From the NCBI GenBank assembly GCA_026874595.1, contig CM049307.1:10439579-10503578 (forward strand): DNA of 64,000 nt, read 5' to 3'. A program made the translations under genes and the position numbers. Below, in pieces: positions 1-37,551 of the stretch (positions within the stretch are counted from its first letter, which is position 1; each line of letters opens with the position of its first letter). This DNA comes from Sipunculus nudus. Lineage: Eukaryota; Annelida; Sipuncula; Golfingiida; Sipunculidae. Below the pieces are notes generated by a model. It was not told the origin of the DNA, did not search any database, and worked only from the letters and a program-made list of their open reading frames with translations.

Positions 1-661
1 TTTACCACCTCACAATTATAACATGAGTGACTTCAGCATATCCGAGTGCAGAGATTATGACTGTGTTTTAAAAATGTGTGATAAAAAATTAAAATAATTA
101 CTACTAATTTATCCTGTATTGTCTGTTGCCTGTTCAGATTTATTTTTATCTGAATTGCCGTGTTTGTGTAAATATTAAATAAACATAATAAAAGTTTGAT
201 ATTAGATAAGTAATATGACTTCAGTGATATATATCTGATTATAAAAATGCACTCAAGGCTAGCTGTATTTATGTAAGGATTCTTTAAAAAAATCTTGCAT
301 TGAAAAATATAATTATAATACATTATATTTGGAAATGTATGTGTCAAAATGGAACCTTTTAAATCATTTTAATTGCATCTGAAACCTATCCTATATCATT
401 TTGAGAATATTTTGTTTGATATATTTATTTTGTACATTTAAATAATTTGAAACATTCCTTTTAACACATAAGAAAATTAAGAATATGTTCACCCATGTTT
501 ATGTAATAAAGCAGTTTGTATATATTACAGTGAATGTTAGAATATTATTTTAATTTAATATATATATAAGTGTGTGTTAAATTAAAATAATATATAACAT
601 ATATATATATATATATATCATCTTTATTATTAGTGCATTATCGTATTTCTTATTTTAACAG
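1..661 (+). other. Intron sequence upstream of the terminal exon of gene 1
   Basis: This AT-rich stretch has no supportable coding sequence. It ends in a splice acceptor (AG at 660-661) after a T-rich tract, so it is read as the 3' part of the last intron of the gene whose final exon follows. It contains an AT dinucleotide run at about 599-618. Short open frames here look like chance. Confidence 0.6.
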
Positions 662-790
662 GGACCATCTGAGGGAGAGAGTAAGAATGAAGACATCCCA
701 TTGAATGGGGGAACAGCATCTCCAGATTCTTCATCTAATGCTTATGGAATTAACAGTCAGACTAATTCCCACTATGATACAAAGGTATAG
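662..790 (+). CDS. 3'-terminal coding exon of an unidentified gene, with PDZ-ligand-like C-terminus
   Basis: An acceptor AG at 660-661 is followed by a frame open from the first base (GGA) for 42 codons to TAG at 788-790. The other two frames close within about 45 bases. The encoded tail is Ser/Asn-rich and hydrophilic, starts GPSEGESKNED and ends SHYDTKV, so it should be cytosolic. The last four residues DTKV fit the class I PDZ-binding pattern (S/T-x-hydrophobic). Such tails occur on transporters, channels and adhesion proteins. The end of vertebrate EAAT1 glutamate transporters (ETKM) is similar, but four residues cannot identify a family. The rest of the gene lies to the left of the window. 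Exon call is fairly strong; function is unknown. Confidence 0.7.
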   Translation, partial: GPSEGESKNEDIPLNGGTASPDSSSNAYGINSQTNSHYDTKV

Positions 791-1045
791 CAGACTGGCG
801 CCACCTAACAGCACATCAGGGACCTAGAACAATAGCGTGTTTTGTGATATACGTTGGTCTATAGCAAGAGAACCAGTCCCTTTTCCCTGTACCAATCAAT
901 GAAAACAATCCTTTGTATCAGATAGCCCCCTGCCTCTCTGTCAGCCACTGTTGTCTCACTATATCTCCAGCCTGGTTTTCCTTGTGGGCGGTGGATCGTG
1001 TCATGTAAAGGGGTTATGTAGAATAAAGACATTTCTCATGTAGGT
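791..1045 (+). other. Likely 3' UTR of gene 1 with polyadenylation signal
   Basis: The sequence after the stop codon is less AT-rich than its surroundings and carries a canonical AATAAA at 1022-1027. Cleavage would fall at about 1040-1050. Other possible hexamers occur further on (for example near 1739), so a longer UTR is possible. Confidence 0.4.
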
Positions 1046-2930: not shown

Positions 2931-5537
2931 TTTAGCGAACCTGTGAGCTTATGCGATGGTGCGGCGTCGTTCATCGTGTGTCGTGCGTCGTCTGTACGTT
3001 AACCATAGCTATCTCAAAAACGGCAGGAGCTAGCATCACCAATTTTTTTGCAAATATTCAGTCATCCAAAAAACTATATCAGATTTTGTTTATTTTTTTT
3101 CTAACTGCATTTTCTTAGATTTTATAGGGAAAAAGCTAAAAAAACTTTAAAAATCTTCTTCTCTGAAACTGTCCAGCCAAATTGTCCAGTATTTCACAGA
3201 AATGATCCCTGGATCAATCTTTCTCAAGTTTGTTCGAAAGGTTCCAGTTTGGAGATTTTTGGCTGAGTTACAGGAGGTTGAACTTTGTTAACTGTGCAAA
3301 AAAGCATATTAAAATTTAAATCTCAGAAACGGCTGGAGCTATCATCACCAAATTTTATGCCAATGTTGGTCACATGAGTCATATCTGAAATTGAGGTATT
3401 GGTGGCGCCATCTGCATCGGCCTTTTTTGTATGGGGGTCATCATTCCCTGTATCATACTGACAGCTACAAATAACTTCTTCTCTGAAACGAAATGGCCAA
3501 ATTGTTTAATATCGTACAGAAATGATCCTAGGGTAGTGCTTTCTGAAGTTTGTTCAAATGGTCTCAGTTCAGTGACTTTTGGCTAAGTTATGGGAAGCTG
3601 AATTTAGTCATATGCCACAACAGTCCATTTTAGCTAAGTGGCTACAAAAATCTTCTTCTCAAAAACCACTGGGCCAAATTCTTAAATCCCACACATTAAT
3701 TATCCTTAGATGTTGATAATTCAAGTTTGTTCAAATGGTCTCAGTTCAGTGACTTTTGGCTGAGTTGTGGGGAGCTGAATTTAGTCATATGCCATAACGA
3801 CCAATTTTAGCTAATTGGCTACAAAAATCTTCTTTTCAAAAACCACTGGGCCAAATTATTAAATCTCATACATTAATTATCCTTAGATGTCGATAATTCA
3901 AGTTTGTTCAAATGGTTTTGATTCAATGATTTTTGGCTGAGTTATGGGAAGCTGAACTTTGCCATTTTGTTGTATTTTCCCATGAGTTATAAACCTACAA
4001 AACGTTTTTCGACTGATGATGATACTGAGGCCAGTTTGTATAATATTTTGCAAGAGTAATTCCCTGAATCATTCTTATAATAATTGTCTTTCATGGTTCC
4101 AAAAAATTGAATTTGGCTGAATTATAAAGATTGAATTGAGTCATTTTACCAAATATGTTAGCTGTGTGAAGCAGATACATCTAGCTTAGCACCAGTTTAT
4201 CAGCATCCATTACATCATGCCTCTAGACATTTAGATTTCAGGTTATCTATGGAAAATATTGACAAGAATGTTTTTAAAAGCTTTTAAAAAATGTAGATTT
4301 ATGATATTACATATCATCTGTACACTAACTCATAATTTTTCAGGAATAGCAGGAGCTACCATCCCCAAATGTTATGCAATTATCTGTCACATATCAAATG
4401 TTGATGGATTCATCTTATTTTTGCTATCTGCATTTACTTAGATTTTACAAGGGAAAAGCTGAAAAAAACTTGTAAAAGTCTTCTTCTTGTTAACAGTCCA
4501 GCCAAATTGTCCAAATTTTACAGAAATGATCCCAGACGTGAGCCCTCTCAAGTTTGTTCAAATGGTTTGTGTTGGATAAATTTTAGCAGAGTTACATAAC
4601 AGGCCAAGATTGTGTACGTTTCTTGAATAGGTTAAGAAACTGCCAACTGTTTCAGATTTGGCAACAGATCAAGAGTTCATTCAGTGCAGCCAAATATAGG
4701 TCAACAGTTCAGTCAGTGCAGCCAAGCACAAGGCATGTGATCACCTCATGGGCAGCATGTGATCATCTCATGGGTAGCATGTGATCACCTCATGAGTATC
4801 ATGTGATCACCTCATGGGTGTCATGCCCCTCAGGGCTGCATATGGAGCCAATCTGTGAGCTTATGCAATTGTGTGGCTACTATTTCAGATTTGGCAATAG
4901 GCAAAAGGTCAGCCTGGATTTATTAATAGCTTTGGCAGACTGCCAACTGTTTCAGATTATGCAACAGGTCAAGAGTTCACTCAGTACAGCCAGGTACAGG
5001 TAAAAAATTCACTCAGTCTAGCCAGGTGCAGGTCAAGAGTTCACTCAGTGCAGTAGCCTGAGCCAGTAATTTGTCACAGTACACTCGGGGCAACAGCCTT
5101 TCTCACCTAAGCCTGGTCAGCCCTGTGCTTCAGACTCAAGGTAAGTTTGATGTATTGGCCTGATATTCTGACCTGTCTATGTATTTTTATGGCTTTCTCG
5201 TTCACAAGACAGGTGTTGCCATCTACAATGACTTTTGCAAAGTGTATTTGCCTGCTTAATTCTACAGAAGAATTTGATATATCAGCCTGAAATTGGGCAT
5301 ATGTGTACATGTCAAATAGCTTTGTTGTATACAAGACTGGTGGTGCCACCTAAAATAATTTTTGTGTTGTGTGCACCCATGCCAGAATTTCAGCAGTGAT
5401 GTTTGTGTATTGTTTCTTGTTCAAAATGTTTAGTACTTGCATTGTTCATATATATGAAAAGTAGTGGTTCAGCACTGAAGCGTTATACCTGGTGTATATC
5501 CATATGCACAGGTTCGCATTAGGCCTGTAGGCCTTGT
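2931..5537 (+). mobile_element. HINE-like element E, complete
   Basis: The element starts in a T-run with GCGAACCTGTG (2935-2945). The complement of this, CACAGGTTCGC, sits near the other end at 5507-5517. It is followed by the palindrome AGGCC-TGTA-GGCCT (5521-5534) and a terminus TGTTTT. Subterminal inverted repeats, then a 3' hairpin, then a T-rich end, is the plan of Helentron-associated interspersed elements (HINEs). No transposase is encoded, so mobility would need an autonomous Helentron elsewhere. Inside are units of about 180 bp with the phrase AAGTTTGTTCAAATGGT (near 3226, 3548, 3723, 3900 and 4551), one copy of the shared GGTGGCGCCA core near 3402, and a 26-bp satellite near 4735. 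A second 5'-like phrase (GTGAGCTTATGC near 4855) hints at an internal rearrangement. Confidence 0.7.
4735..4825 (+). repeat. 26-bp tandem repeat with TGATCA, four copies
   Basis: Four units of about 26 bp contain CATGTGATCACCTCATGG with small changes. The unit includes two palindromic cores (CATG and TGATCA). It lies inside element E and is flanked by looser repeats of 45-50 bp around the phrase GTCAAGAGTTCACTCAGT, up to about 5055. Confidence 0.75.
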
Positions 5538-7134
5538 TTTATATTTTTGTCAGAGCTTTTTTATATATCTGCATACTGCATGGCACAAATAAAGAAATGC
5601 CAGCTTCAGGTAATGTCCCACCTAAATGTTTCCACCACTGTTATTATATATAACCATTAGAGGAAAATATGAATTTATTATTGTCAGTAAGTCAGGAAAG
5701 TTCAGTGTGACTGACTGGGACACATTCCATTAACTTATTTGTATGAATTATGAATTTTTTGTTGTGCTTACTTAATCTTATCTTCAGGTGGGCTCTGCCT
5801 ATATTCTGTCTAGATATTTCATTGATAAAACATATTTTGTATGCATGACATTGGTGCCACCTTTTTAAAATTTATTTAAATACACAAATTTACTCTCCAA
5901 TCCCATCACTGTTTATACCTTTGTTGTACCATGAAGGGCCTTGCTGGGAAACTTTGGGTCTTTTATATTTTGTTACTGTATTTGTATACAAAGGAACAGG
6001 CCTGCCAAGTTTTGAAGGAAACTTGTTGTGCTTGTACTTTATGTACTTCAGAGGATTATGAATATACAGTATTACCTCAGTTTCCAACCAGAACCATAGA
6101 AATATAAACAGCAAGTGAAGGGTCAGGTGACTGAGGATATAAACAAGTTGGTTGGCTTTAGGTAAAGGCATTCTACTTGAATGGACATTTGAGTCACAAT
6201 AATGATTTGTTGATTGCCATATGTACCAAGGCATGAAGAAATAATTGGTTATTAAGGTCAAATAGCACATTTAGATGGCACAATTTGGAAAATGGAAAAG
6301 GTAAAGAAAAAGTTAATAGGATATCTTACAAATATATACTGTTTCAATTATGGCTGCATGGACAGTCTTGTTATTTGATGTGCTCAATGGCAGTTTTATT
6401 GGTTACCCAGAACAGGAAGCACCACCTGCATTTGCTTCATGTTTTTGTATGTTTAAATTATGGAGCAATGCTACCTTTGTAAAAATTGTGTATAATGTCA
6501 CCTTGAAAGGGTTATGTTGATAAAAAGGAGTGCAAAACTTGTATATATTTAGTGCCGTTGCTTTTTGGGCTTCAGTGATTACCTGAAAATGAGAATATGG
6601 CATCTTTAGTGAATGTCCTGTCCTAAGATCTTATGGCCATTCCTAACTCACAAATTCTCAAGTGAACTTGCTACTTTTTTTAGTTTCAAGTTTTTACACA
6701 CTTGAAGTCGACCTATATTTTTGTACCATAATGTACCAGAGGCTTCATACAGTAACTGTAACGACCACTTAGTTGGAACTGAAAGTACAGAAATGTGAGT
6801 ACCATCATCAGAAATGTTCATACTGTTGTTACTATGACATTTTGTAAAACAGCAGTTTATGTATTCCCAAAAATGACACATATTCACTCATTAGAAAGTA
6901 TGACCTTTGATACATTGAGCCAGAACATGTTTCATTTTTGTTAATTTTTTAAGTTTGACCAATCACCGTCAATCACTTGTAATATTAAGTTTTATTTCTT
7001 AAATTTCCTTCTGAATCAACGGAGTATATGTATATTAATGGCTTTGGACTTAAAAGGAATCATATCTTTTAAAGACCAAATGTGCTTGGACTATCAGAAC
7101 CTAGTCTGATGCATTTTATTTTCATAGATGGATG
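5538..7134. other. Non-coding stretch, no gene seen
   Basis: AT-rich unique-looking sequence. Its longest open frames (about 80-126 codons) show no domain, no signal and no splice context, and are probably chance. A canonical AATAAA occurs near 5588. Confidence 0.4.
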
Positions 7135-7620
7135 GACTGAAGTTATACTAAAATCTAGTGTTTGTATAGTTTACATGTAGTGTAACTACAAGTAGCATTA
7201 AGACCTGGTGTTTATATTGTAATCATGTGTAGTGTAACAGGATAAATTACAGAAGTAAAGCTACAGTGTTTGTACAAAAATGTTTGGAATAACATAATAA
7301 GTTACACTATAAGGTCTAGTGTTTATACAAAGAAATACTAAATAACAGTAAAATTATATCTATTCTGCTGGTTATAAATAGTATTTTAGTGAAACAGAAA
7401 ACGTTACAATACAGTGTAGTCTTTATACAAAGAACTTCTAGTCACAGAAACATGAAAGTTACAAAAAAACTGCTGTCTATAGAAAGAATGATAACTGTAA
7501 CAGGATTGGTAGCACGACGACCTCGTGTTGATAGGGTTAATGTTTCATGCGTCAGGATAAGTGGCACTACGTATAGTGAGAGGTGTTAATACAAAGAATG
7601 TTTAGTGTAATAAGGCTGTG
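7135..7620 (+). repeat. Degenerate tandem repeat of about 50-60 bp
   Basis: At least six diverged units share a pattern of AGTTACACTA, a short spacer, then TCTAGTGTTTATACAAAGAA. Copies start near 7141, 7189, 7245, 7300, 7400 and 7565. The units vary in length and sequence, which suggests an old array. No palindromic core of the HINE type is present. Confidence 0.5.
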
Positions 7621-8171
7621 CTAATTTAATGCTCTGTGTTCCGTTATAGTGATCAAAATGAAAATTTTATTATAATAAAATGATGTTAAAAAATTGGTTA
7701 AGTGTGTGTGGTGCAAAATGTATGTTTTGCAATACGAGTCTCGGAAAACTTTGCTTTAGGGTTTTAGAGTTCTTGCACATTAAGATAATGGAAGAATATG
7801 GTATTTTTTAGCTCAGATTACTTTCAGTCAGCTCTTTGTCCATCGTCCGTCCGGCCTTCCTCTTGTCCGTTAACAGGACACAAATCGTAACTGCTGCACC
7901 TAGAAACTTCTAACTGAACACCCGTGAAGGTCTATATAAAATATTCTTGAAGACCTGAAAAAAGGTCACTTCGACCTATATCTTCCGAGCTATGGGGCCC
8001 GTAAATACCCCCTAGAATTATTAAACATTTGATACAAAAGTTCCAATATCTGAATAACTAAATCTTTGCAATGACTGCCATGATTTTTTCCATGCATTTT
8101 GATCATGGAGTGTATCACCAGTCCTGAAGACTGGTGGCGCCACCTATATTTTTTCCAATTGCTTACGCGTT

Positions 8172-11161
8172 TTTTAGCTCAGCTGACTATAAGTCATCTG
8201 GATGTCCGTCCGTAAGACTGGCACGTTTCGACACCGTTGGACCTACGAATCTGAATGCCAAAAATTGGGTCAATAGGACTTCGTTCCTTTGAGATATTAA
8301 GGAAAAACCTCAATTTTTTATTAGAAATCTATTTTCACACTTCAGGACTGCCTAATATCAAAACCACTCATCTGGTTTTCTTCATATTTACCATAAATAT
8401 TCCTCTATATAGTTCCTATGTACATGCAAGATATTAAGTCAGTATTATATAATTTAAAAAAGTTATTGGCCCAAACATAATGCACTTTGTAAAAAAATCA
8501 GGAAGATATTTTGTCACTTAAAACTAAAAGTGTTAAAGATAGGGACTTTTTTCCAGTAATACAACTTAAATTAATCAAAATTTTTTATGGCAAAAATATA
8601 AAATTGATACCTTAAATTTTGCCCAACTTTGGCCATGGCAGGTTTTTTTCCTGTAAGTACTGTGGATTTAATTGTCACACCATGTATACATAAGGATTTA
8701 ATCTGTTAAAATCTGAAATTTGAAAATAAAAGCTGCAAAATTAGGCTAGTTATTGATTTTTTTTGGAGGCTCTTTTTGTATTCCCTTACATTGTCAAGCA
8801 GTCCACTTTGATGACTGTAGGTCATTCAGTGCACATCTCTATGCTCCCCAGGCTGTTGACATAATTTTAGATGTCCCCAAAATCTCCTACCATACCGAAA
8901 ATTGGGTCATTAGGACTTTGTTCCTTTGAGATATTAAGGAAAAAAACTCCGTTTTCCATAAAAAAAAAGCCATTGTTACACTTCAAGGCTGCCTAATATC
9001 AAAACCCCTGATCTGTTTTTGATCGTATTTAGTATTCATTCTTTTATACATTTTCTATGAACATACCAAAAATTAGGTAAGTATTGAGTATTATTTTGAA
9101 GTTATGGGCCAAAACATAATGCAATTTTTTAAAAAATCAGGAAATATATTTACTCACATGAGAATTGCTGAACCTAGAGACCTTTTTTCAGGAATATAAC
9201 TTTATTTAATCAAAATTCAATTGTTTACCCAAAATTAGATCTGAATTTTGCAAATTTTTCAAGTTATTAGCATAAATAAAAAACAATACCTTAAATTTTG
9301 TCCAACTTTGGCACTGTTGATTTAATTTTCCCAGCATATATGCATAAGGATTTAATCTTTTAAAATCTGAACTTTCAAAAGAAATTGATTGGAATGAATA
9401 GCTTTTATTCATGTTTTCACACACCATGTCAAGTGTTGTTTACATCTAGCCCACCTAGTAGTACAGCCTTCACTTGCATTATGTAACCCACCTCAGGCAG
9501 CTTACCTTGGCCCAGCTTGGCCACTACTAGCAGGCTTCCCCTCACCCTGCACTCACCCCCCCCCCCCAGCTGGTGCATAAACTAGATGAATGTTATAATT
9601 TTTCTGTATTTTATTTTATTCTTGGACATGCTACATTTTAGATTTTGTATTGAACCACCAGGGTTACAATGATTAAAGTGTACATTTAATTGTGTCCACA
9701 AAGTGGTGTATTGCTGTGAAAGTCTGGATGTTCATGAGATAAGTAATTCCTTACTTCAGAAGAGTAAAAACTTCACCAGGAATGAAATTGACTATTAATT
9801 CCAGTAATTAATTAAAACTGGGATAGTAATTAGCACAATGATATTGTTTGTCCCTCATTCAACCAACAGTGTGTATACTTTATTTGAAAAGATGTTTTAT
9901 TTTGTCAAATTTACTTTTATTTTATTTTGGTGAATAAAATTAAGCATGTCCTGAAAACTCCAATATGCAAAACTTTTTAATAGTAATTCAAGGAATATTC
10001 TTGTAGATGCCATGTTGTGGCATTATTTTCTTTTAAAATCAGTTAAAACATTTATGATTTAAAAATAATAAAATATATGTGTATTCATAATATGACCCAA
10101 TGTTTTTTACTCTGTTTATATAATGATTGCAACTTTTGCAACAATTCTAATATTTTAACTTATATTTTCAGGTTTTTTAATTAAAAATTTATAAACCTGT
10201 AAATAAAAAAATGATACAGATAAAAACTTCTTAATGGAAAAAGTGGATCTGCTTAAAAAAATAGGATTATATATAAACTTAAATGCATTATTCTCTTGAA
10301 AGTGAAATAAAGGTATTAGTCCATTCTGTCCACTTGCCTGTCCATCTGTAAATTTTCGTATGCAACACAGTATCTCAAAACTTTTACTGTTTTTCTTCAT
10401 GACAGTCTTGTCAGAGTATTAGTTTGCAATCATATATTTAGAACTTTACTATAACCAAGTAGGAGGGCCCATTTCCTCTTAGCTTTTCATATTCTTATAT
10501 AAATGAAAAACATTACAATAGAATATTTCTACATCCACCTTCGTGCTGCCCTCACTTTTCCCTTTTCCGAACCCCATCCCAAAGTCAGCCTCAGTAAGCA
10601 AGAACAAGATGAATCAGATATATTCATACTTTAATATTTTGTATAACTATTCGTCCATAGGTACCTATGTACATGCCAGAAATTATGTCAATATTGTGTA
10701 ATATGTAGACATAGTGGGCATCACAATAATGTACCTTGTCAAGACTAAAGAGATATTGTGTCATACAGTCACATATTCATAAATCACATAGTTAATCATA
10801 ACATCATATCTGTCAAATTGAACATTGCAGACTACCATACACTTTAGATCCTTCAACAAATAGCCTTATCATCTACTACTGCTTATTACTGCTGTCATTG
10901 CATTCATATTTGCTCAAATATATCACAATTTTCAACCCCTCCTAAATAAATAAAAAATAAACCACTTTATTTGACTCTATAAATCCATCAGTAAGGTAAT
11001 TTCATTTATCATTTACTCACATATTACATTACATTCCTTTATAATAGCCCAACATGTACATGATATTCATAAGCTTTATTGACTCGATATAGTATCACAG
11101 TGGAGAAACATTTATAGTCCAATCACGATCAGCTGAGCGCCGTGACCCATGGGTCCCTTGT
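8172..11161 (+). mobile_element. HINE-like element B1, about 3 kb
   Basis: The 5' end is TTTTTAGCTCAGCTGACT. The 3' end is CAGCTGAGC (from 11130) followed by the palindrome GACCCATGGGTC (11144-11155) and CCTTGTT. B shares its ends with A, but inside it has two tandem units of about 640 bp. These are recognised by GGCACGTTT, TTCGTTCCTTTGAGATATTAAGGAAAA and CTTCAGGACTGCCTAATATC (quoted in parts). A C-run (about 9549) and an AT-rich tail follow. No protein is encoded. Its 3' end abuts the 5' end of A1 directly. Confidence 0.65.
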
Positions 11162-11469
11162 TTAGCTCAGCTGACTGAAAGTCATCTGAGCTATAGCGAT
11201 CACTCTTTGTCCGTCGTCCGTCTGTCCGTCCGTTAACCAGGCACAAATCGTAACCGCTAGTTCTAGAATCTTGTAACTTGGGATTCTGAGAGGTCCATAA
11301 AAAATCTCCTTGGAAACCAGAAATTAGGTATCTGTTACCCATATCCTTCGAGCTATGGGGCCCCAAAGTAAAATTTCATACAAAACTTTGATATCTCATT
11401 TACTACATCACTGATGGTCATGATTTTTTGGCATACATATTGATCATGAGATGTTCTATCTGTTCCTGC

Positions 11470-12840
11470 AGACTGGTGGCGCCAACTGTATTTTTCAATT
11501 TTTCACGATTTCTTTTCTCTATTGAGACCTTTAAAAATGTGAACATCTGTTAACAGGGCACAAATCGTAACCGCTGGCCCTAGAATCTTCATTCATGACA
11601 CACTGAGAGACCTATGATAAGTCTCCATGGAAACTAGAAATTAGGTCTCTGTTACCCAGATCTGTCGAGCTATGGGGCCTCAAAGTACCCCCCAGAATAG
11701 TCAAAAATACAAAAACTTCAATATCTCATTAACTACATCACTGATTGTCATGATTTTTGGCATACATATTGATCATGAGATGTTTCATCAGGTTCTGCAT
11801 ACTGGTGGCGCCACCTGTAATTTTCAATTTCTTACGAATTGTTTTCTCCTTTTTTGAGACCTTTAAAAATGTGAACATCTGTTAACAGGGCACAAATCGT
11901 AAAGACTGGCCCTAGAATCTTCATTCTTGACACAGTGAGAGACCTATGAAAAGTCTCCATGGAAACCTAAAATAAGGTCTCTGTTACCAATATCCTTGGA
12001 GCTGTGGGGCTCCTAATAACCCCCTCAGAATAATGGAAAATTTGATAAAAACAAACTGCAACATCTAAATAACTACAACACTGATGGTCATGATTTTTGC
12101 ATACATATTGATCAAAAGGTGTTCCATTAGTTCCGGCAGACTGGTGGCGCCACCTGTATTTTTTTCTAATTTTCACAATTTTTCCTCTCTTTTTTTGAGA
12201 CTTTTAAGGATGTAGTTAATTTGTCAACAGGGTACAAATCGTAACGACTGGACCTAGAATCTTCATTCTTGGCACACAGGGAGACCCATGAAAAGTCTCC
12301 ATGGAAACCTGAAATTAGGTCTCTGTTACCCATATCCTTTGAGCTATGGCACTCCAAAGTACAGCTCAGAATAATGGAACATTTGATACAAAAAGTATCT
12401 GAACAACTAATGCAGAGACCACCATAATTGTTTGCATGGATATTGATCATGGAGTGTTTCATCAGTTTCTGCAGACTGGTGGCACCACCTGTATTTGTTC
12501 AGTTTTTTTTTACGAATTTTTCTCTTTTTTGAGACCTTTAAAGATATGAACATCTATTAACAGGGCACAAATCATAACAACTCGACCTAGAATCTTCATT
12601 CTGGACACACAGGGAGACCCATGAAAAGACTCCATGGAAACCTGAAATTAGGTCTCTGTTACCCATATCCTTGAAGCTGTATGGTTCCAAAGTACCCCCC
12701 CCCCCCCCAGAATAATGAAAAATTTGATACAAAAACTGCAGTATTTCAATAACTACAACACTGATGGCCATGATTTTTGGCATACATATTGATCATGAGG
12801 TGTTTCATCTGTTTCTGCAGACTGGTGGTGCAACCTGTAT
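11470..12840 (+). repeat. Tandem array of about 340-bp A units with palindromic core
   Basis: The unit carries TATTGATCATGAG about 45 bases before a GGTGGCGCCACC core. Cores or close variants lie near 11474, 11804, 12143, 12478 and 12823, so the period is about 335-350 bp. The two right-most cores are mutated (GGTGGCACCACC, GGTGGTGCAACC). One unit contains a C-run at 12695-12708. Confidence 0.8.
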
Positions 12841-15571
12841 TTTATTCAATTTATCGAATTTTGTTCTCTATTTTTAGCTCAGCTGACTATAAGTCATCTG
12901 AGCTATAGTCGTGGTCCATTGTCCGTCCGTCAGTCTGTCCATCAGTCCGTCCGTAGATGTGGCACGTTTTGAAACCGTAAGACCTAGGAATCCAAAATTC
13001 GGCATAATGTTAGATGTCCCCAAGATCTCCTACCAAGCCGAAAACTGGGTCTTTGTGACTTCGTTCCTTTGAGAAATTAAGGAAAAATCTCAAATTTTTA
13101 TTAAAAACCTATTTTCACACTTCAGGACGGCCTCATATCAAAACCACTCATCTGTTTTTCCTCATATTTACCATAAATATTCCTCTATATATTTCCTATG
13201 TACATGCCAGAAATTATGTCTGTATTATATAATATAAAAAAGTTATGGGCCCAAACATAATGCATTTTGTAAAAAATCAGGAAAGATATTTGTTCACTTA
13301 ACACAAAACATGTTAAAGCTATGGACTTTTTTCCAGTAATATAACTTTAATTAATCAAAATTAAATTGTATACCCAAAATTAGATCAGAATCTTTTAAAT
13401 TTTTTAAAATATTAACAAAAATAAAAAATTGGTACCTTAAATTTTGCCCAACTTTGACCATGGCACGTTTTTTTTTCTGAAAGTACTATGGATTTAATTT
13501 TCACAGCATGTTTTTGTTAGCATTTTGTCTGTTAACACCAAAAATTTGAAACCAGTTGATCAAAAACTGTAGATTTTATTCAAGTTTTCAAGCACCATGT
13601 ATTATATTGTTTACATCTTGCATGAAATCAACTCCCCAGCTTCAGCTCTCAGTTCCTAAAATTTGGTATACAATTAGATGTTTCCAAAATCCCCTACCAT
13701 GCCAAGAATTTGGTCACTAGGACTTAATACCTTCGAGATATTAATGAAAAACTTCATTTTTCCATTAAAAACCCATTGTTACACTGTAAGACTGCCTAAT
13801 ATAAAAACCACTGATCTGACTGTAATCATATATAATATACATATTTTTGTATACATTCTCTATGCACATGCAAAAAATGATGTCAGTATTGCGTAATTGT
13901 TTTAAGTTATGGGCCCAAACATAATGCACTTTGTAAAAAATCAAGAAATATATTTACTCCCTTAACAAGGGGATTGCTGAAGCTAGAGATTTTTTGTCAG
14001 GGATGTAACATTATTTAATCAAGATTCAATTGAATACCCAAAATTAGTTCTGAATTTTTAACATTTTATAAGTTATTAGTATAAATATAAAATTAGTACC
14101 TTAAATTTTGCCCAACTTTGACCATGGCACGTTTGTTTCCTGTGAGCACTGTTGATATAATTTTCAGATCATGCACATATAAGGATTTCAGCTTTGTAGT
14201 TTAGAAAGCTGACAGAAATTGGCCAAAAATTGTAGCTTTTATTAATGTTTTTAGTTCACTCTGTGAACTTATGCCATGGCGCAGCGTCCGCTGTCCACTG
14301 TCAACTGTCCACCGTCCACCGTCTGTTACCAAATATCTCAACAGCCACAGCAGCTACCTTCATGAAACTTTGCAGAATTATTGATCATGGGATGGAGATG
14401 CAAAAATAAGCTTTTGGTGGCGCCACCTATGTTGACCTACTTTCTGCAGGACGAAATGGTCTTTTCAACTTCTTCCAAGATAAGTCATAAAGTATTAATA
14501 TTTTGGCCTTTTATATCATAGTCAACAGTTCCTTAGAAGAAGGGGAATAATTTGTGTGTAAATTCAGTCAGGTCATTTTCAAGATGGTGTCTCTACAGAA
14601 CTTCAAATCGTGTTTAGCGCAAAATATGACAACTTGATGTGTTTCTATACAGGATGTATTGTCTGATACCAAATATCTGAGGAACTGCTGCAGCCTTCAG
14701 TTTCAAATTTCACAGGAATATTGATCATGTGACTGCTGAATGATTTTGACCTGCAGGTGGCGCCACCTGTGTTGACCTACTTTCTACAGGCTGTAATGAT
14801 CTTTTCTGCTTTTTCCAAGATATGTCATAAAGTATTAATATTTTGGCCTTCATATCATAGTCAGCAATTCCTTAAAGGCAGGAGAATAATTTGAGTATAA
14901 ATTCAGTCAAGTCTTTTTCAAGATGGCGTCTTTACAGAACTTCAAATTCTGTCAATTGCAAATATGACAACTTGATGTGTTTCTATATACATGATGTATT
15001 GTCTGTTACCAAATATCTGAGGAACTGCTGCAGCCTTCAGTTTCAAATTTCACAGGAATATTGATCATGTGACTGCTGAATGATTTTGACCCACAGGTGG
15101 CGCCACCTGTGTTGACCTACTTTCTACAGGCTGTAATGTTTTTTTCTGCTTTTTCCAAGATATGTCATAAAGTATTAATATTTTGGTCTTCATATCATAG
15201 TCAGCAGTTCCTTAGAGGAAGGGGATTAATTTTAGTATAAATTCAATTAAGTCTTTTTCAAGATGGCGTCTCTACAGAACTTCAAATTCTGTCAATTGCA
15301 AATATGACAACTTGATGTGTTTCTATACATGATGTATTTACCGTTACCAAATATCTGAGGAACTGCTGCAGCCTTCAGTTTCAAATTTCACAGGAATATT
15401 GATCATGTGACTGCTGAATGATTTTGACCTGCAGGTGGCGCCACATGTGTTGACCTACTTTCTACAGGCTGTAATGATCTTTTCTGCTTTTTCCAAGATA
15501 TGTCATAAAGTATAAATACTTTGGCTTTCATATCATAGTCAACAGTTACTAGGAGAAAGGGAAATAATAAT

Positions 15572-17627
15572 TGTATCCGCCAAAACAGAGTTTTGTGGAT
15601 ACTTTGTTTTCAGCTGCACGCCGCCGCCACCGCCGCCGCGGCGTAGGTGTCCGGAGAACTCCTCCGTAACCGCTGGGCGGAATTTTAAGAAACCCGGCAT
15701 TATGTTTGGGTCACATGTGAACTGCTGCGCCCCGATTTTGTTTTGACCTCTGACCTTTCCTCTGCGCTCTGCGTCCGTTTGTGCGTCTGTTTCCACACAT
15801 AAACCCACATATCTCGGGAACCGTTTTACCAATCAGGAAAATTTTTTTGCACAAATGTAGCCCTTGGAGAGCTTTATAACATACACAAAAAATGGTGGCG
15901 CCACCTGCAACCATGTTTGCACAGTGTCCATCTGTTTGTCGGCCTTGGGTAAAAATCACTCATATCTCTGCAGTGACTTGACTAATTCACCTGAAATTCG
16001 GCATGCGTATACATCCTGGATAGCTTTTCTGATTTTATGACAGGTGGCGCCACCTACATTCACGTTTACGCTGCAGACATCCAAGCTCATATCTCGGGAA
16101 CCGTTTGACCGATCAGGAAAATTTTTTGCACAAATGTAGCCCTTGGAGAGCTTTATAACATACACAAAAAATGGTGGCGCCACCTGCAACCATGTTTGCA
16201 CAGTGTCCATCTGTTCGTCTGCCTTGGGTAAAAATCACTCATATCTCTGCAGTGACTTGACTAATTCACCTGACATTCGGCATGCGTATACATCCTGGAT
16301 AGCTTTTCTGATTTTATGACAGGTGGCGCCACCTACATTCACGTTTACGCTGCAGACATCCAAGCTCATATCTCGGGAACCGTTTGACCGATCAGGAAAA
16401 TTTTTTGCACAAATGTAGCCCTTGGAGAGCTTTATAACATACACAAAAAATGGTGGCGCCACCTGCAACCATGTTTGCACAGTGTCCATCTGTTCGTCTG
16501 CCTTGGGTTAAAATCATTCATGTTTCGGCAGTGATTTGACATATCTGCCTAGAATTTTGCAGGTTTATACATCCCCGACAGCTCTCTTGATTTTATGACA
16601 GGTGGCGCCACCTACTTTCTAGTTTATGCAGCAGACATCCAAGCTCATATCTCGGGAACCGTTTGACCGATTGGGCCAAAATTTTGCATGTGTATAGATC
16701 TCACATAGCTCTTTATCATAAGCAAAACTGGTGGTGCCATCCGCAGCCATTTTTGCACAGCTTCTGTTTGTTTGTCTGCCATGGGATAAAATCACTCATA
16801 TCTCGGCAGTGGTTTGACATATCTGCCTTAAATTTTTTCAGGTTTATACATCCCCGACAGCTCTCTTGATTTCAAACAAACAGAAGCTGTGCAAAAATGG
16901 CTGCGGATGGCACCACCTGCATTCTAGTTTATGCAGCAGACATCCAAGCTCATATCTTGGGAACCGTTTGACCGATTGGGCCAAAGTTTTGCATGTGTAT
17001 AGATCTCACATAGCTCTTTATCATAAGCAAAACTGGTGGTGCCATCCGCAGCCATTTTTGCACAGCTTCTGTTTGTTTGTCTGCCATGGGATAAAATCAC
17101 TCATATCTCGGCAGTGGTTTGACATATCTGCCTTAAATTTTTTCAGGTTTATACATCCCCGACAGCTCTCTTGATTTTATGACAGGTGGCACCACCTGCA
17201 TTCTAGTTTATGCAGCAGACATCCAAGCTCATATCTTGGGAACCGTTTGACCGATTGGGCCAAAGTTTTGCATGTGTATAGTTCTCACATAGCTCTTTAT
17301 CATACGCAAAACTGGTGGCGTCACCTGCAAACATTCTTGCTCAGCGTCCATCTGTTTGTCTGCCACGGGCTAAAATCACTCATATACATGTAGTGGTTTG
17401 ACTTATCTGCCTTAAATTTTGCATATATATACAACTTGGACGGCTTTCTGGATTTTGTGGTGGGGGGGGGGGGCAACCTACATACACAATTTGGCTGCAG
17501 ACATCCATGCTAATATGCAACACTTCACTCTATTTCCCCTTGCCACTCGATCCATGCCTCACTTCACCCGTTCCACTTTGATTTAGGTGGATACATGTAG
17601 TCGCTTGTCGACTGCCCGTATTCTAGT
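15572..17627 (+). mobile_element. HINE/Helitron-like element D1, 2.06 kb
   Basis: D1 starts TGTATCCGCCAAAAC and ends with a mutated inverted copy TTTAGGTGGATAC (near 17582), then the hairpin AGTCG-CTTGT-CGACT (17599-17613), then CCCGTATTCTAGT. It combines a CTAG end preceded by a hairpin (Helitron-like) with subterminal inverted repeats (Helentron/HINE-like). Element C around it gives an internal reference: removing D1 restores AATAAT+TTGAGTATAAATT, the canonical C sequence, so insertion was between two Ts without duplication. The interior is a tandem array with GGTGGCGCCACC cores alternately about 149 and 130 bp apart (15894, 16043, 16173, 16322, 16452). A GCC-rich patch lies near 15617. Confidence 0.75.
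15894..17330 (+). repeat. 279-bp dimeric tandem array inside D1
   Basis: Two half-units of about 130 and 149 bp alternate, each ending in a GGTGGCGCCACC core or variant, giving a 279-bp period. Conserved phrases are CATATCTCGGGAACCGTTTGACC and GGCATGCGTATACATCCTGG (quoted in parts). The left copies are almost identical; the right ones have GGTGGTGCCA or GGTGGCACCACC cores. One segment at 16874-16917 is inverted. Reverse-strand open frames in this array repeat with the period and are not genes. Confidence 0.85.
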
Positions 17628-18972
17628 TTGAGTATAAATTCAGTCAAGTCATTTTCAAGATGGCATATCTACGGAACTTCAAATTGTGACAATTGCAAAA
17701 TTTGACAACTTGATGTGTTTCCAAACATGATGTATTGTCTGTTACCAAATATCTTAGGTACTGCTGCAGCCTTCAGTTTCACAGGAATATTGATCATGTG
17801 ACTGCTTAATGATTTTGACCTGCAGGTGGCGCTACTTTCAGCAGGCTGTAATGGTCTTTTCCGCTTTTATCCATAATATGTCATTAAGTATTTATTTGTT
17901 ATAATCTGCCAAAATAGAGTCTCCTCTGAGACTCTTGGACTGATCTTTCTGAAACATTTTTTTAATCACCTGCCAAAATGCACAGTAATTCACAGAGTGA
18001 ACATTAGACCCCTGGGTCTGTTGTTATGATACCATGTCAGACCTTGGCTCTCTGCAGCCCCTCTTGAGTCACCTGTACGTTGACCTTGTTGAACTTTCAG
18101 CAAATTATGCATGCTTGAGGTGAGACATACACTGGGGCAGCCAGGCAGCTTATGGACAGCCACAGTTGATCCAGGTGTCCAACCCAACTCATCTAGTAGT
18201 TTTGACCAACAACATAACAATAAACAATAAATAAATCAATTTTTATTGTTTTTTAATAACAAATTAAAGAAAAATAGAAAAGGAATTTGTTAGTGTATAA
18301 TAACAGGAAATTAACTTGCAGTTACTGATGATATAAGAATCTTGTATTGATGGATAGAATGTCACATATTCCATATATCACCATGCAGTCACCTATGGTA
18401 TTTTTCAGTTCAATTTTAATGATAAAAAAGTAAATCATAATATTCATTACTAATCATTAGGGATCATATGAAGGAAATTAATGATAGACAAAGATGCAGT
18501 TGATAATATTAATCTAGATTTCTACTGTGTCTAGTGTGTACATTGATGTGAAATTAGTCCAAAATGAATATATTACATTTATTTTTTTAATATAAATAAA
18601 AGCCATAAAACCAGATACTTATGATCATTATTTAAATGTGTGAATTTGGTATATTCTGGATTCTCAACATCATTGTTTGGTGAAAACTGAATAAATACCA
18701 GACATGGTGCGAATACTTTGCAATTGTATTTAAATACGAATATTAATATGTACTCCATTATAAAATTTTTTGCATAAAGTATGGGAATTCAGGTAAAAAT
18801 GAAAGAATATGAATACCAGTGCAAATACTTTCAAAATGTATTCAAGAATGCATTCATGAATATATTCTTTAATAATATTTTAATAATAATTTCAGTTATA
18901 TTTCATTTTAAAAAATCATACGATTCTCTTATTATTTTTAATAAAAATTATATTTGGGACAATATTTGTAAT

Positions 18973-21393
18973 TTTTAGCTCAGCTGACTTTCAGCCATGC
19001 TGGGCTATAGCGATGGGTCTTTGTCCGGCGTCCTTCCGTCTGTCCGGCCGGCCGTCCGTCCGTTAGCAGGGCACAAATCGTAACCATAAGGGCTAGGGCC
19101 ATGAACCCTATGCAGTCTAAGAGGTTCTAAAAAGATCTCCTTGCAAACCTGAAATTAGGTCACTGCGACCTATATTCTCGAAGTTATGGGGTGTGTTTGC
19201 ACCCCCCAGAAATAATTCTTTTAGCCAAAATTTTCATCCCAAACCTTCCATCTTTCACATACAGCACACCTACCAACAGGGGAAGAACCATAATTATTTT
19301 GAGGTCACAAGGTCAAAGGTCAAGGTCACAGAACCAACTTCTTTGAAAAGCCTCAGGATGCATTTTAAGCCAAACCTTTCATCCCCATTCTTTGATCTTT
19401 CACATATAGCTCACCTACTAAGTGGGAGAAGAATCCTATAGATGTTGAGGTCACAAGGTCAAAGGTCAGGGTCACAGGATCCACTTCTATGAAAAGGTTG
19501 TGGACACGTTTCAAGCTAGACCTTTCATTCCAAACCTTTCAGCACTGATATCGCTTCTCTGCCAACAGGGGAAAAGACCTGTTGATTTTGAGGTCAAAGG
19601 TCAAGTTCACAGCACCCTCTTCTTGCGTGGAGTCATTTTCAGCAAACTTTTCAATCTATACTTTCCATCTGTCATATATGGCTTACCTACCAATAGGAGA
19701 AGAAGCCTATTGATGTTGAGTTCAAAAGGTCAAAGGTCAAGGTTACAATATTGTTCTAAATGCTTGTGAACATATTTCAATTGAAACTGTTCAACCCAAA
19801 TCTTCAGTCTTTCACATATGCCACATCTATGCATCACTGAATTTGATTCAAACTTCATATTTATGGGTCTTTTTGCATGAAGAAATAACAAATTGATATT
19901 GTGGTCAGCTGGTCAGGAGGTTAAAGGTTGCAGGTCTAAGTTATTCACTCATTGGTTGCCAAGTAATTACACCCGGCCAGATGTAAGTGGTTAGTAGTTA
20001 CCCATCATTTAGAAAGAATCCAGTTGATATGTGGGCAAAAGGCCAAGGTCATAGGTCAGGGATGTTCACAATAACTTATTCTGTAGACCATCTCTATTTT
20101 TCTTGTTTTCTTGTATATATAACCATATGGCACTCACAACTGGTACATCTCACTATGTGCCCATAATTGTCAGTGACACTTGTGATATATGACTCCCTTT
20201 TGTATCAGCTCATGGAGTGATAAGGATATATCATTAGTGCATAACAAAAACACTGTTGCCGGAATGCTTTGGCCAGGCATTAAGACTATGAGAGTTAAGT
20301 GTTAAGTTTAGCTACTGATTTATAAAATGATGGGAACATTTTGCAGTTTATATCATGGAATCATAGCAATAAACTTAGTTTTCTAGATATCTGAATATTA
20401 TTATACAAATCATCAGATATACCAGCAAGTGTTTGTTCTGATAATATGTGGGTCTGTACCTGGATTTAGGATGGCTTTATTTGATTACAAGACTCTTAGT
20501 GATGCTTTCTGCATTTCTTTTCTTTTAGGTTTTGCAGTTTACCTACCCTGCTGACCCCATTGAATAGCAAGCTGATAATTGGACTTGCACTTTTTACATT
20601 TGCATGTTCATAAATCTGATATGAGAGCTCTCCAACCTGATCATGCCTTTTGAATTGTTTTGGACATTCATAACTGTTTTATTCTTTTAAGCAATTGCTA
20701 CAAGTTTAGTGTCTTATTGGAGGATGTGTGACTTGTCAGAAAACCATTATGTCTGCCAGGTAGCCATTTTAGAAATCCTTTTACCAGGACAGTTTCTGTG
20801 ATTTTTTTATGATGTTTGGTCCCTTTTAGAGGATGTTTGTTGTTCAATTTCCGACCTGTCAGAAATCCAATATGGCCACCAGGACGCCATCTTTAAATTC
20901 CTTTAGAACATATTATCTCAAGAACTATAAAAGTGAATGCAGTGGGATGTATATTAATGTAATCTTGCATTGGGTCAAAGATTTCTTAATAAATATGACC
21001 ATCATTTATGAAAGCTCAGTACAGCTGGCTTGTATTGAATAAAAATTAATATGGAAGCACCCGTTTCACAATAACTCTTGCATGGATTTCCTTGATCTTT
21101 TGCTATATTTTGATCTTATATGTGGCCTGTGTGGTATTCCTTTGAGACTGAAAGGTATCGAGCAAGCTGTGGGATTAGTTCCTGATAGCTCAACAACCAT
21201 ACATTTCGCCTCAGACCATCATTCACTATGTTTTAACCAGACATATATGATAAGAATTTATGGCAATGTAGAAAGTTTAAACAAAATAGGCATATAGGTT
21301 CTGCAACAATTTTACTAGAAGTTGTGAATTGCAGCCCATGATGTCGCAGGTCATGCTTGGCAGCTGAGCGTCATGACTCATGGGTCACTTGTT
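18973..21393 (+). mobile_element. HINE-like element F, about 2.4 kb
   Basis: The 5' end is TTTTTAGCTCAGCTGACTTTC and the 3' end CAGCTGAGCG (21361-21370), palindrome TGACTCATGGGTCA (21373-21386) and CTTGTT. The start matches A (GGGCACAAATCGTAACC), but the interior has units of about 120-130 bp with GAGGTCAAAGGTCAAGGTCACA, quoted as GGTCAAAGGTCAAGGTCACA, at about 19300, 19450, 19590 and 19725. No GGTGGCGCCACC core was seen in this copy. The GGTCAAAGGTCA repeats resemble nuclear-receptor half sites, probably by chance of the repeat. Confidence 0.6.
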
Positions 21394-21817
21394 TTAATAA
21401 ATAGTTAAACTCTTATATTATATGTTCTGCTTATAAGTTATATTGCCAAGTCAAAATCTGTGTGACAATAGTACTCCATTTGTTAATAAAATAAATTAAA
21501 TCAATCCTCTTCCCTGTCTCCAAAGGTACTATCAAAATCATAATAAGCTAAACAACAACAACTCATAATACAGCTTATATTTATTACCACACTAAACCAG
21601 AATGTGCCTCATTTTAAATTCATATTTTTTTTATCATATATAACAGCTGAGCGCCGTGACCCATAGGTCCCTTGTTTAGACCTCTAAGGATGCTGTCATC
21701 TGTTAACGTGGCACAAATTGTAACAACTGGACCTAGAATCTTCATTCTTGTCATGCAAGGAGGCCTATAGATATTGACCATTAAGTGTTTTTATTAGTAT
21801 CTGCAGACTGGTATTTT

Positions 21818-22960
21818 TGTATCCGCCAAAATGAAGTTTTGCGGATACTATGTTTTTGACCGGGTTCCGCCGCCGCGTTTGTTTCTGGAAAACTCCTCTG
21901 AGACTACTGGATCAATTATCGAGTCACATGTGAACTGGTGCCTAACCAATTTGCGTTGATCTCTGACCTTTGCTCTCTGCCCAGCGTCCATTTGTGCATC
22001 TGTTTCCACACATAAACCCTCATATCTGGGGAACCGTTTGACCGATCAGGAAAATTTTTTATACAAATGTAGCCCTTGGATAGCTTTATAACATACACAA
22101 AAAGGTGGCGCCACCTGCAACCATGTTTGCACAGTGTCCATCTGTTCATCTGCCTTGGGTTAAAATCACTCATATCTCTGTAGTGAATTGACTTATTCAC
22201 TTGAAATTCGGCATGCGTATACATCCTTGATAGCTTTCTTGATTTTTGACAGGTGGCGCAACCTACGTTCACGCTGCAGACATCCAAGCTCATATCTCGG
22301 GAACCGTTTGACCAATCAGGACAAAATTTTGTGTATAGATCTCGCATAGTTCTTTCTCATACGCAAAACGAGTGGCGCCACCTGCAACCATTTTTGCACA
22401 GCGTCCGTCTGTTTGTCTGCCATGGGATAATATCACTCATATCTCGGCAGTGGTTTGACATATCTGCCTAAAATTTTACAGTTTTATACATCCTGGACAG
22501 CTTTCTTGATTTTATGACAGGTGGCGCCACCTACATTCTAATTTACGCTGCAGACATCCAAGCTCATATCTCGGGAAACGTTTGACCGATGGGCCAAAAT
22601 TTTGCATGTGTATGGATCTCACATAGATCTTTATCATACACAAAACTGGAGGGGCCGCCTGCAACCCTTTTTTCATAGCGTCTGTCTGTTTGTCTGCCGT
22701 GGGCTAAAATCACTCATATACATGTAGTGGTTTGACTTTTCTGCCTATTTTTCGCATATGTATACAACTTGGACAGCTTTCTGGATTTGTGGTAGGTGGC
22801 ACAACCTACATACACATTTAGGCTGCAGACATCCATGCTAATATGCAACATACCTCACTCTATTTCCCCTTGCCACGTACTCAATCCATGCCTCACACCA
22901 CCTATTCCACTCTGATTTTGGCGGATACATGTAGTCGCTTTAGACTACCCGTATTCTAGT
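21818..22960 (+). mobile_element. HINE/Helitron-like element D2, 1.14 kb
   Basis: D2 starts TGTATCCGCCAAAATG. It ends with the intact inverted copy TTTTGGCGGATACA (22916-22929), the perfect hairpin GTAGTC-GCTTTA-GACTAC (22931-22948) and CCCGTATTCTAGT. It is the same family as D1 with fewer internal units (cores or variants near 22104, 22250, 22371, 22520 and 22795). It sits in a T-run of an A unit just after CTGCAGACTGG, again consistent with T/T insertion. Confidence 0.75.
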
Positions 22961-24078
22961 TTTTAAAGTTAACGCATTTTTTTCTGTGTTTGAGATATAT
23001 AAATACAGACACAATCTTGGCCTGTTGGTGAATCTGTTTGATGCTTCAGTTGAATGGGTATATACTACCATTCTGATGATAAAATTTCCTTTTGCGAATC
23101 TCTTCCCAGTCAGCTGAGCGTCATGACCCATGGGTCACTTGTTCTCTATTTTTTTAGGCCTTCTAATGAAGCAGTTCAGTGGTAAATAGGGCACAAACCG
23201 TTACCGTTATACCTAGAAACTTCTAACTCTTTATCGAGAGAGGTCTGGGGCAAACCTTAAAAGAAAGCTGAAATTAGGTCATGGTGACCTATATTCTATG
23301 AACAACCGGCTGAAAATCAGTTTTTGAGTGCCAAGTGAGTCAGACAGGGTACAAATTGTATCCGTAAGGTCTGGAATCTTCTGACACAATACCCAGGGAA
23401 GTCCTGGGAATTTTCTTGTACTCTCCTTGCACATCTGAAATAAGGTCATTATGACCTTTAATCTGCAAGACACGGGACAATTTTTGAGCACCCTAAAAGA
23501 CAGATTTGCATGATTGGTTACAGTTGGACCTAAAAACTAAGATCCAGGGAGGTTCCTGTAAAATTCCTTGGAAATCTGAAATAATATCACTGTGACCTAT
23601 ATTCTGCGAACTATGTGGAAGAACATGATTTTAGCACTATTAGTAAAATGAGCACAAATTGTAACTTAACACCTAGGGAATTCCTGGTAAAATCTTCTTG
23701 ATACCCTAAAGAAGGTCACTGTAACCTTATTTCTAAGGGCTATAGGCAAAAAGCATAATATTGAACATTCTTTAAGTCATACTACCCATTGTTCAAAGTT
23801 CTTTATCAAATATTTGTCACCGGATCATAACATCAATAATTAATAGTTGCATGCGTCAGTTGTAAAATTTTGCTGAGAGCATAGCCCATGGGCCACTTGT
23901 TCATTTTTTTCTACCCTCTGTTGACGTGGAATATTTTGGTAAAAAAAAACCCCAGCATTTTCAATTCATTCATTCTCCACTAATTTGATTTGATCAAATG
24001 AAAAATTTACTACTTTTTACTTTTCCCTTCCTTTGCACCCTGAAAAACACCAGATACTAATTAAGCGTAAGAAATCGT

Positions 24079-25635
24079 TTTTAGCTCAGCCGACTATAAG
24101 TCAACTTAGCTAAAGCGATGATCCTTTTTCCGTCGGCTGTCTGTCCGTCCTTCTGTCCGTTAAACTGACACGTTTGAAACCGTTTTACCAACGGATCCGA
24201 AATTCGGATATACCATACCAAAATATTGGGTTACTACGACATGTACCTTCGAGATACAAAGGAAAAACCTCAATTTTGCATTAAAAACCCATTGTTACAC
24301 TTCAGGACTGCAAAATATCAAAACCGCTGGTCTGATCTTGATCATATTTGAAATATTAATTCCTCTATATATTCCCTATATGTACATACCAGAAATTAGG
24401 TCAGTATGTAATTTCTTGAAGTTATGCGCCAAAACATCATGCATTTTGTCAAAACTCTGGAAATATATTTAATCACTTAACATGATAAATTTTTAAGCTA
24501 GAGAGCTTATTTCAAGTATATAAGTATATTAAACTTAGTTTTATTTGTAAACCAGAAATTAGATCAAACTTTTGTATTTTCCCAAGTGATTATAGCATAA
24601 ATGAACCTTAAATTTTGTCCAAATGTGACCATGGCACATTTTCTTGAAAGCACTGTTGATTAAACTTTCACAGCTTGTACACACGGATTTAATATTTTAT
24701 AATCTGAAATTTGAAACCGATTGATCAAAATCTGTAGATTTTATTCAAGTTTTCAAGCACCACGCCCAGTATTGTTTACTCCAAGCCAGCCCAGAGCAGT
24801 CATTATGTAATCGCTAAACACTCCTGAGCAGCTTCCTCCGCTAGGTGAGCTGGGTCAGGCTGGCAGTAACTACCACATAGAGCCTTTCTCCCCCCCCCCC
24901 CCCCCCCCCCCCCCCATCATCAACCCCTTCAATACACAGGACTTATAAGGAAGATGAAACTTGTAATTTCAATGTTAAATTCTCTCTTCTTTTGTGAATT
25001 AAATTATTTTTTATATATTTTTTTTAATTTCAGGATTTGAATCCTAATTTTTAAATACGATAAAATGTAATTTATTTACATGGTTTAAGATTTAATAAGA
25101 TATAAATACTGTAGCATTTCATTCATATCTCTTAAAGTTGGCAGTGCCTTGATATGAATAACAATGTTAAACTGAGTTAATTAGGAATATTGGGCAAATT
25201 TCGGTGGGATTAATTTATAGCTCGTATGGCCATATATTTAATTATTGAAAACTTAATTACATTTTTTGTTTATGAATTTATCCTTTAATATAAAACTTAG
25301 GCCCTTTTTTCGTTTTGCGTCATTAAATGGTTTTATGCCACAAGTTTCATTTATTAAAAAGTGTAATTGCGATTAATACCTAATTGGCTTGTTTTAACAT
25401 GCTTGTTAAATTTTGTTTCTTCTCATTTGTTTTTTTACAGCCTTTTTTTATTTCAGTTAATATATTAATGTTTAATAAATTATATTTTGGCTTATTTCCA
25501 TTGTTCTAAAATTTACAGGGTTTATTTTCGGAGGGTCATTTCCTCTAAGCTTTTCAAATGCTAATATATTTGAAAGAAAAAAAAAGAAGAATATTTTGAA
25601 TTTGCAAATTCAGCTGAGCGGTTCCATGTTTCCCA
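24079..25635 (+). mobile_element. HINE-like element B3 with decayed 3' end
   Basis: The start TTTTTAGCTCAGCCGACTATAAG, the B-type phrases (ACCTTCGAGATACAAAGGAAAA, CTTCAGGACTGC) and a C-run at 24890-24915 match B1. The tail phrase GGAGGGTCATTTCCTCTAAGC (near 25531; quoted in part GGTCATTTCCTC) also occurs in B1 near 10465. The 3' subterminal CAGCTGAGCG is present at 25611-25620, but the palindrome after it is no longer recognisable. Only one B unit is present, so it is shorter than B1. Confidence 0.55.
24890..24915 (+). repeat. Poly-C run, 26 bases
   Basis: An uninterrupted run of C lies inside element B3. B1 has a shorter C-run at the equivalent place (about 9549), so the run is an inherited part of B elements. 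Confidence 0.9.

Positions 25636-37518: not shown

Positions 37519-37551
<33 letters not shown>

Follow-up and report, generated by a model that had tools for sequence, protein, structure and literature searches.

A five-level nest of HINE-like elements in Sipunculus nudus, at least one layer of which probably spreads as a composite

Introduction

HINE/DINE-1 elements and Helentrons are characterized by subterminal inverted repeats (subTIRs), a palindrome at the 3' end, a T-rich target and, for the non-autonomous forms, non-coding sequence; in the excerpts of PMC4067079 used here, tandem arrays belong to only some HINE/DINE-1 copies, and clusters and composite or bypassed-terminator transposition are discussed for Helitrons and suggested for Helentrons. 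In Crassostrea gigas, the Cg_HINE copies described in the excerpted parts of PMC7492417 have a 5' subTIR with a complementary inverted repeat, a GTCC-type microsatellite, a central satellite-like array with units of 138-181 bp and a 3' subTIR followed by a palindrome, enter a T-rich target without target duplication, and occur inside other repeats. For the same species, ‘shuffled’ loci of Helitrons and satellite DNA, in what we draw on from PMC12628747, contain elements and truncated structures inserted in other elements. Here we analyse a stretch of 64,000 nucleotides from Sipunculus nudus (assembly GCA_026874595.1, contig CM049307.1, positions 10,439,579 to 10,503,578 of the forward strand; hereafter the window), in which several families of HINE-like elements, labelled A, B, C, D and F, lie one inside another.

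Apart from the unit length of the arrays and their restriction to some copies, the features listed above for Cg_HINE and for HINE/DINE-1 and Helentrons are common to this locus, and its overall look resembles, in our reading of these descriptions, that of bivalve HINEs. Compared by description, the larger arrays have longer units here (about 280-340 bp, with 146 bp in F), and, in contrast to the ‘shuffled’ loci as described in PMC12628747, empty sites here allow the layers to be resolved, and one junction is multi-copy. We infer, with a probability of roughly 0.78, that the region is a nest of non-autonomous Helentron-associated elements shaped by the abundance of the families, by targets repeated in their arrays and by the spread of composites, in which element A1 arrived with D2 inside it and C (with or without D1) and F then entered singly.

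Results

Anatomy of the nest

Eight elements (A0, B1, A1, B2, C, D1, F and D2), each with paired ends and all on the plus strand, occupy positions 7806-23901 of the window (Table 1), which lies in an assembly of 1.43 Gb and 153 contigs. The region is a true nest of HINE-like elements of about 16 kb, and its anatomy comprises five levels, A0, A1, B2, C and D1 from the outside inwards, the outermost of which is the least firm. An earlier reading made from the letters alone (the sequence-only reading) had proposed both these bounds and this depth: the bounds hold with the element ends located by motif, and the depth is borne out by the paired ends and by six joins that read through, that of A0 weakly.

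For each join, we removed the inner element and aligned the joined flanks to intact units or to paralogous copies; as a control, the right flank was swapped for 1000 random pieces of the window and those that reached the joined score were counted. Three broken units had been read as resuming where they stopped, and all three do. Alignment to intact units gave 270/307 for D1 in C and 224/273 for B2 in A1, and the join of C in B2, weak when B2 is set against B1 (89/126), gave 323/353 against a paralogous B2 copy without C (locus L002). The remaining joins reached 411/462 for F in B2, also against L002, and 216/244 over the aligned part for D2 in A1 against L043, where the window has a 12-base gap beside the join; that of A0, with B1 and A1 taken out, was weaker, at best 172/236 to A units. 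Random flanks reached the joined score 0 times in 1000 for C, F and D2, 2 times for D1, 6 for B2 and 16 for A0, and these exceedances are likely to be draws from the repeat arrays themselves.

Several loci elsewhere in the genome preserve the unoccupied state. L002, a B2-type copy on contig C6, lacks both C and F and aligns through both joined sites; at the same place, L043 holds an A tail without D2; and L048 is a C element whose unit 4 is uninterrupted and carries no D. B1 has near-whole copies at L043 (96%) and L044 (95%).

The whole could instead be one ordinary long element without nested insertions, a view that the multi-copy junctions of A with B and of D with the A tail would fit. We find it hardly credible: separate 5' and 3' ends belong to each inner element; outside these hosts, B, C and D are found at other places; C, F, D1 and D2 are each absent from some paralogous copy, with L002 refuting the idea for C and F; and the position of B at different T-runs in different loci refutes it for the whole.

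Table 1 Parts of the nest in order along the window, with the basis for each assignment
Feature	Position	Strand	Basis
A0 left part: TTAGCTCAGATTACT at the 5' end, microsatellite rich in GTCC, first unit of the array	7806..8173	+	5' motif with 2 mismatches; unit similarity to A1
B1, complete HINE-like element within A0	8174..11161	+	Both ends exact
A1 left part: 5' end and 4.5 units of ~332 bp	11162..12873	+	Tandem Repeats Finder (TRF) period 332; 5' end exact
B2 left part	12874..14251	+	5' end exact; copies without C and F in L002, L040, L042
C left part: palindromic subTIR GTTCACTCTGTGAAC and four ~340-bp units	14252..15571	+	Matches at 39 other scored loci
D1, complete, within C unit 4	15572..17628	+	5' end exact; 3' motif with one subTIR mismatch; L048 without D
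C right part: resumed unit, 3' end TTCACAGAGTGAAC...AGACCCCTGGGTCTGTTGTT	17629..18025	+	Motif; unit continuity
B2 middle part	18026..18974	+	Continuous with B2 left part in L002, 323/353
F, complete, A-type ends, 146-bp array	18975..21393	+	3' motif with 4 mismatches; TRF; L002 empty site 411/462
B2 right part and 3' end	21394..21676	+	End motif; L002 comparison
A1 resumed degenerate unit	21677..21817	+	B2 join aligned to A units
D2, complete, within last A1 unit	21818..22962	+	End motifs; L043 empty site; D2-A-tail junction at 39 other scored loci
A1 tail, 3' end CAGCTGAGCGTCATGACCCATGGGTCACTTGTT	22963..23143	+	End motif; copies at other loci
A0 resumed units and 3' end	23144..23901	+	Flanks joined at 8173 match A units (best 172/236); 3 mismatches in the 3' motif

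A layer that probably came as a composite

The junction between D2 and the A tail is spanned at all 40 scored loci (the window and 39 others, the latter at 93-94%), which lie on 17 contigs, and the span lengths are near-constant (441-445 bp); the query held both sides and selects for loci with both, so that 40/40 is not a frequency. When only the 3' end of D2 was used, without the tail, 24 of the 40 loci (23 of 39 besides the window) fell in the list of that junction, and in the other 16 the tail may be weaker or absent. L041 is an A element, about 6 kb long, that has B and D inside it and in which both A ends are present. Because a junction at the same base that recurs in this way is hard to obtain by independent insertion, A1 most likely reached this site already carrying D2.

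Besides the selection built into the query, two observations weigh against this. In a search with the tail alone, 37 of the 39 other top tails lie outside the D-tail list, which fits L043 and suggests that many A tails have no D2-like neighbour or a diverged one; and L039 has the same D-tail junction, yet its D is only about 85% like that of L041.

The sequence-only reading had the nest assembled step by step at this spot, by seven separate insertions in the order A0, A1 beside B1, B2, C and D1, with F and D2 apart, and suggested, as one of two options beside a tolerant spot, that the elements home in on each other. Separate insertion agrees with joins that align and with the absence of C and F from paralogous B2 copies. 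The recurrence of the D2-tail junction at near-constant length in 39 other scored loci, however, speaks against purely local assembly, and the evidence on homing is given below; as a whole, we consider this account unlikely.

Layers that entered this copy

The locus lists used throughout hold the best 40 scored of 300-12,292 candidates per query. Among them, the junction of B2 with C is spanned at 1 of 40 loci, the window itself; the other 39 hold C at 94-98%, with matches that start at window positions 14230-14248, at or just before the C boundary, and the B2-type copies of L002, L040 and L042 are without C and F. Because the junction is spanned only here among the scored loci and such B2 copies exist, we take C and F to have inserted into this very copy of B2.

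Two further loci use the same bases. At L017 (near position 3206, minus strand) a B-type end lies in another B2 copy at the base that C uses here, 14250, and at L084 a C lies at the B2 base that F occupies here, 18974; we claim no hotspot for this repeated use of T-runs.

D at a repeated target in the C units

For D1 in C, the junction is spanned at 22 of 39 other scored loci (79-96%), and the C-D list also takes in 9 of the 39 C copies that the B2-C search scored outside the window. In the six loci that were read, D lies at the AATAATT of the C unit, in unit 4 (the window, L051 and L052), unit 3 (L047 and L053) or unit 2 (L054), and L049 has D-interior sequence after a break in C unit 2. The D copies are 95-97% alike and do not cluster by unit class; that even those of the three unit-4 loci do not group together counts against spread of the pair.

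Both separate hits on a repeated target and the spread of C with D inside fit these data, so that D1 may have arrived inside C or entered it later. Spread of such a composite had been considered as the settled reading, prompted by L051 and L052, where D lies at the same base as in the window and the outer flanks are unrelated. It was withdrawn because L048 shows the supposed diagnostic variants to be ordinary unit-4 sequence, and because D is also found in units 2 and 3 with no clustering of copies by class.

B in the A arrays

A query across the junction of an A unit with B, which selects for that junction, was spanned at all 40 of the best loci, with spans of 535-652 bp. B follows varied T-runs of one T-rich A linker (CAATTT, ACGAATTT and CTCTATTT), and the divergence of the A flanks is uncorrelated with that of B (Mantel r -0.02, with 1108 of 2000 permutations at or above the observed value, for 28 of 32 loci; L003, L012, L031 and L034 were dropped as the B start pattern was not found). 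Because the T-run varies and the divergences are uncorrelated, B apparently entered A arrays by many separate insertions.

A single ancestral composite of A with B was also considered and is rejected for most loci on the same two grounds.

Some loci are less simple. L019, L020, L021 and L023 share one T-run and have A flanks 99-100% alike, and their B parts are not always mutual nearest. L041 and L042, the places of L023 and L021, have A backbones 96-98% alike, D copies 95% alike and B at the same position, yet the two B copies are 89% alike at the 5' end and have no match in the interior, which complicates the reading by separate insertions; module exchange or repeat hits on one site are possible.

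Such differing interiors on a common backbone would also fit if segmental duplication or recombination between arrays (unequal exchange or gene conversion) had taken the place of insertion. This would agree with the varying numbers of array units, with the local duplicate L024/L028 and with the matching flanks of C at L078 and L079, which are a duplication. We nevertheless judge it very unlikely as an account of the nest, given that the joins coincide with element ends, that the 69 bp preceding A in L041 are without a match in L042 and that L050-L054 show no match to one another in the 400 bp before C. L024 and L028 themselves, about 5.6 kb apart on contig C15, have an A-B junction sequence that is identical to two decimals and are likely to be a recent local duplication.

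Ends, arrays and HINE features

The 5' end of A, B and F is TTAGCTCAGCTGACT, found at 7808 (A0, with two mismatches), 8174, 11162, 12874 and 18975, and their 3' type is composed of CAGCTGAGC, GACCCATGGGTC and CTTGTT. C starts at 14252 with GTTCACTCTGTGAAC and has a 3' partner with AGACCCCTGGGTCT, and D runs from GTATCCGCC (at 15571 and 21817) to GGCGGATAC (one mismatch in D1), beyond which come a hairpin and CCCGTATTCTAG. Motifs for 3' ends were found at 11162, 17628, 18025, 21393, 21676, 22961, 23143 and 23901. The subTIRs at both ends are AGCTCAGCTGA/TCAGCTGAGC in A1, B1, B2 and F, GTTCACTCTGTGAA/TTCACAGAGTGAAC in C and the D pair just named; A0 is degraded, and the long 3' motif did not match its 3' subTIR. 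Palindromes are present at the 3' ends (GACCCATGGGTC and variants, AGACCCCTGGGTCT and the D hairpin), and folding of all eight 3' ends gives a hairpin in each, clearly more stable than in shuffled sequence only in D1 and D2 (z -2.1; C -1.2, B2 -0.6 and the remainder near 0).

GTCC/GTCT runs follow the 5' ends of A, B and F. Central arrays, in the same orientation, have TRF periods of 332 bp in A1, 340 bp in C, about 279 bp in D1 and D2 and 146 bp in F. The 5' flanks of C (n = 41) terminate in TTT or in TTATT/ATTATT/TTGTT-type ends and those of solitary D in AATT (12 of 15) or TATT (3 of 15); D2 and the D of L039, unlike solitary D, are preceded by a T-run. At the joins of C, F and D2 there is no target duplication beyond a shared T. 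No open reading frame of at least 150 amino acids is listed across the whole window under bacterial start and stop rules, with no introns and with open ends excluded. The elements thus have the subTIRs, 3' palindrome, T-rich target without duplication and non-coding sequence of HINEs, together with the microsatellite-array layout.

Relative age and choice of target

From the nesting, D had been called the youngest family and A the oldest, an order that does not survive comparison with other loci. B lies inside D at L008 and L126, so D is not always younger than B; A lies inside B at L031, and B inside B at several loci (all read from upstream flanks only). In lists weighted towards the closest copies, identity to the window copy is 94-98% for C, 95-97% for solitary D and, for the most part, 87-93% for B, so that C is as close as solitary D; on these values C and D look young and B older.

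For target choice, we compared the upstream flanks of sampled 5' ends with a library of the nest's own elements, taking as background 20 stretches at preset positions sampled by 400 tiles, each of 150 bp; 65 of the tiles match the library (16%, bootstrap interval 6-28.5%). Library sequence precedes 8 of 41 C ends, 9 of 27 B ends and 3 of 15 D ends. The B sample comprised 31 fetched loci with 4 dropped and the D sample 16 with 1 dropped (L094 and L134-L137, no end detected); the B query included 365 bases of upstream A0, which slightly favours A, the D sample was drawn from loci without C adjoining D, and the flank common to L078 and L079 enters the C count twice. The total of 20/83 sampled ends is not above the genome background within error (p 0.042 against the point value and 0.84 against the upper bound). 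A preference of the elements for each other as targets is therefore not shown by this sample: B ends alone would favour it (9/27, p 0.023 against the point background), but the overall count is within the background interval and C alone stands at 8/41. At L056 (C13:48277664) a B-like piece lies about 120 bp upstream of C and was scored as none under the 150-bp rule, and 6 of 19 incidental A 5' ends have library sequence upstream, two of them as short matches; both are outside this count or unscored in it.

The same background sets a limit on what abundance can explain. Were insertion uniform, a density of 16% would give some 1.7 kb of depth-five DNA genome-wide and a density of 28.5% about 36 kb, which makes abundance alone a tight fit for a five-deep nest and is a point against our account; to meet depth five in one window therefore requires composite copying, regional clustering or HINE families beyond those in the library.

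Orientation

All seven inner elements of the window share the orientation of their hosts. Over the sampled in-family insertions this holds for 17 of 20, against 10.7 predicted from how many T-runs and A-runs the hosts have (p 0.003), a set in which L006 is a weak match (74%), L141 and L145 share one site and may be one event, and L002 is just beyond another element's 3' end and not plainly inside. Split by host, 8 of 11 insertions agree in B, whose T and A runs are balanced, and 9 of 9 in A, D and F. T-run asymmetry was considered as the cause and is insufficient. A long shot would be that HINEs insert into another HINE while it is being copied, at its single-stranded or displaced strand, in which case nests might be partly built in transit and land as composites.

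Related sequence in the rest of the window

Directly downstream of the nest, positions 24079-24890 hold a further B-like start (TTAGCTCAGCCGACT) at about 72% to B2, on the plus strand. An A-like 5' end and unit at 37018-38330 (plus strand) are followed by a 289-bp array related to that of F (66-78%), and 53070-54156 (plus strand) is an A-like array with a typical A 3' end and no 5' end detected. At 31334-32011 lies a 34-bp minisatellite of twenty copies (AGTTGCTTGGTAACATTAAACACTCACAGCAACC).

Discussion

Of the sequence-only reading, the nesting, the element ends and the resumed units stand, and the stepwise local assembly, the age order of families and the mutual preference do not. In the account that we favour, the nest would be mostly an ordinary outcome of family abundance and T-rich landing sites. 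It would arise as these families occupy roughly a sixth of the genome and as their central tandem arrays repeat a target in every unit, T-runs of the A linker for B and AATAATT of the C unit for D. An insert need not prevent its host from being copied from the host's own outer ends, so that some nested pairs would spread as composites. A1 would thus have arrived with D2 inside, copied from the outer ends of A, and C, with or without D1, and F would have entered B2 later, singly. For the transposition itself, as for this order of insertion, we infer rather than observe the course of events: it would be rolling-circle, driven by a Helentron partner.

Because at least one layer is probably a widespread composite, a nest of this kind is not to be read as a local age ladder without a genome-wide check of each junction. 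In addition, a central tandem array can offer an incoming element the same landing site many times over, a point relevant to the joint growth of satellite-like repeats and transposons.

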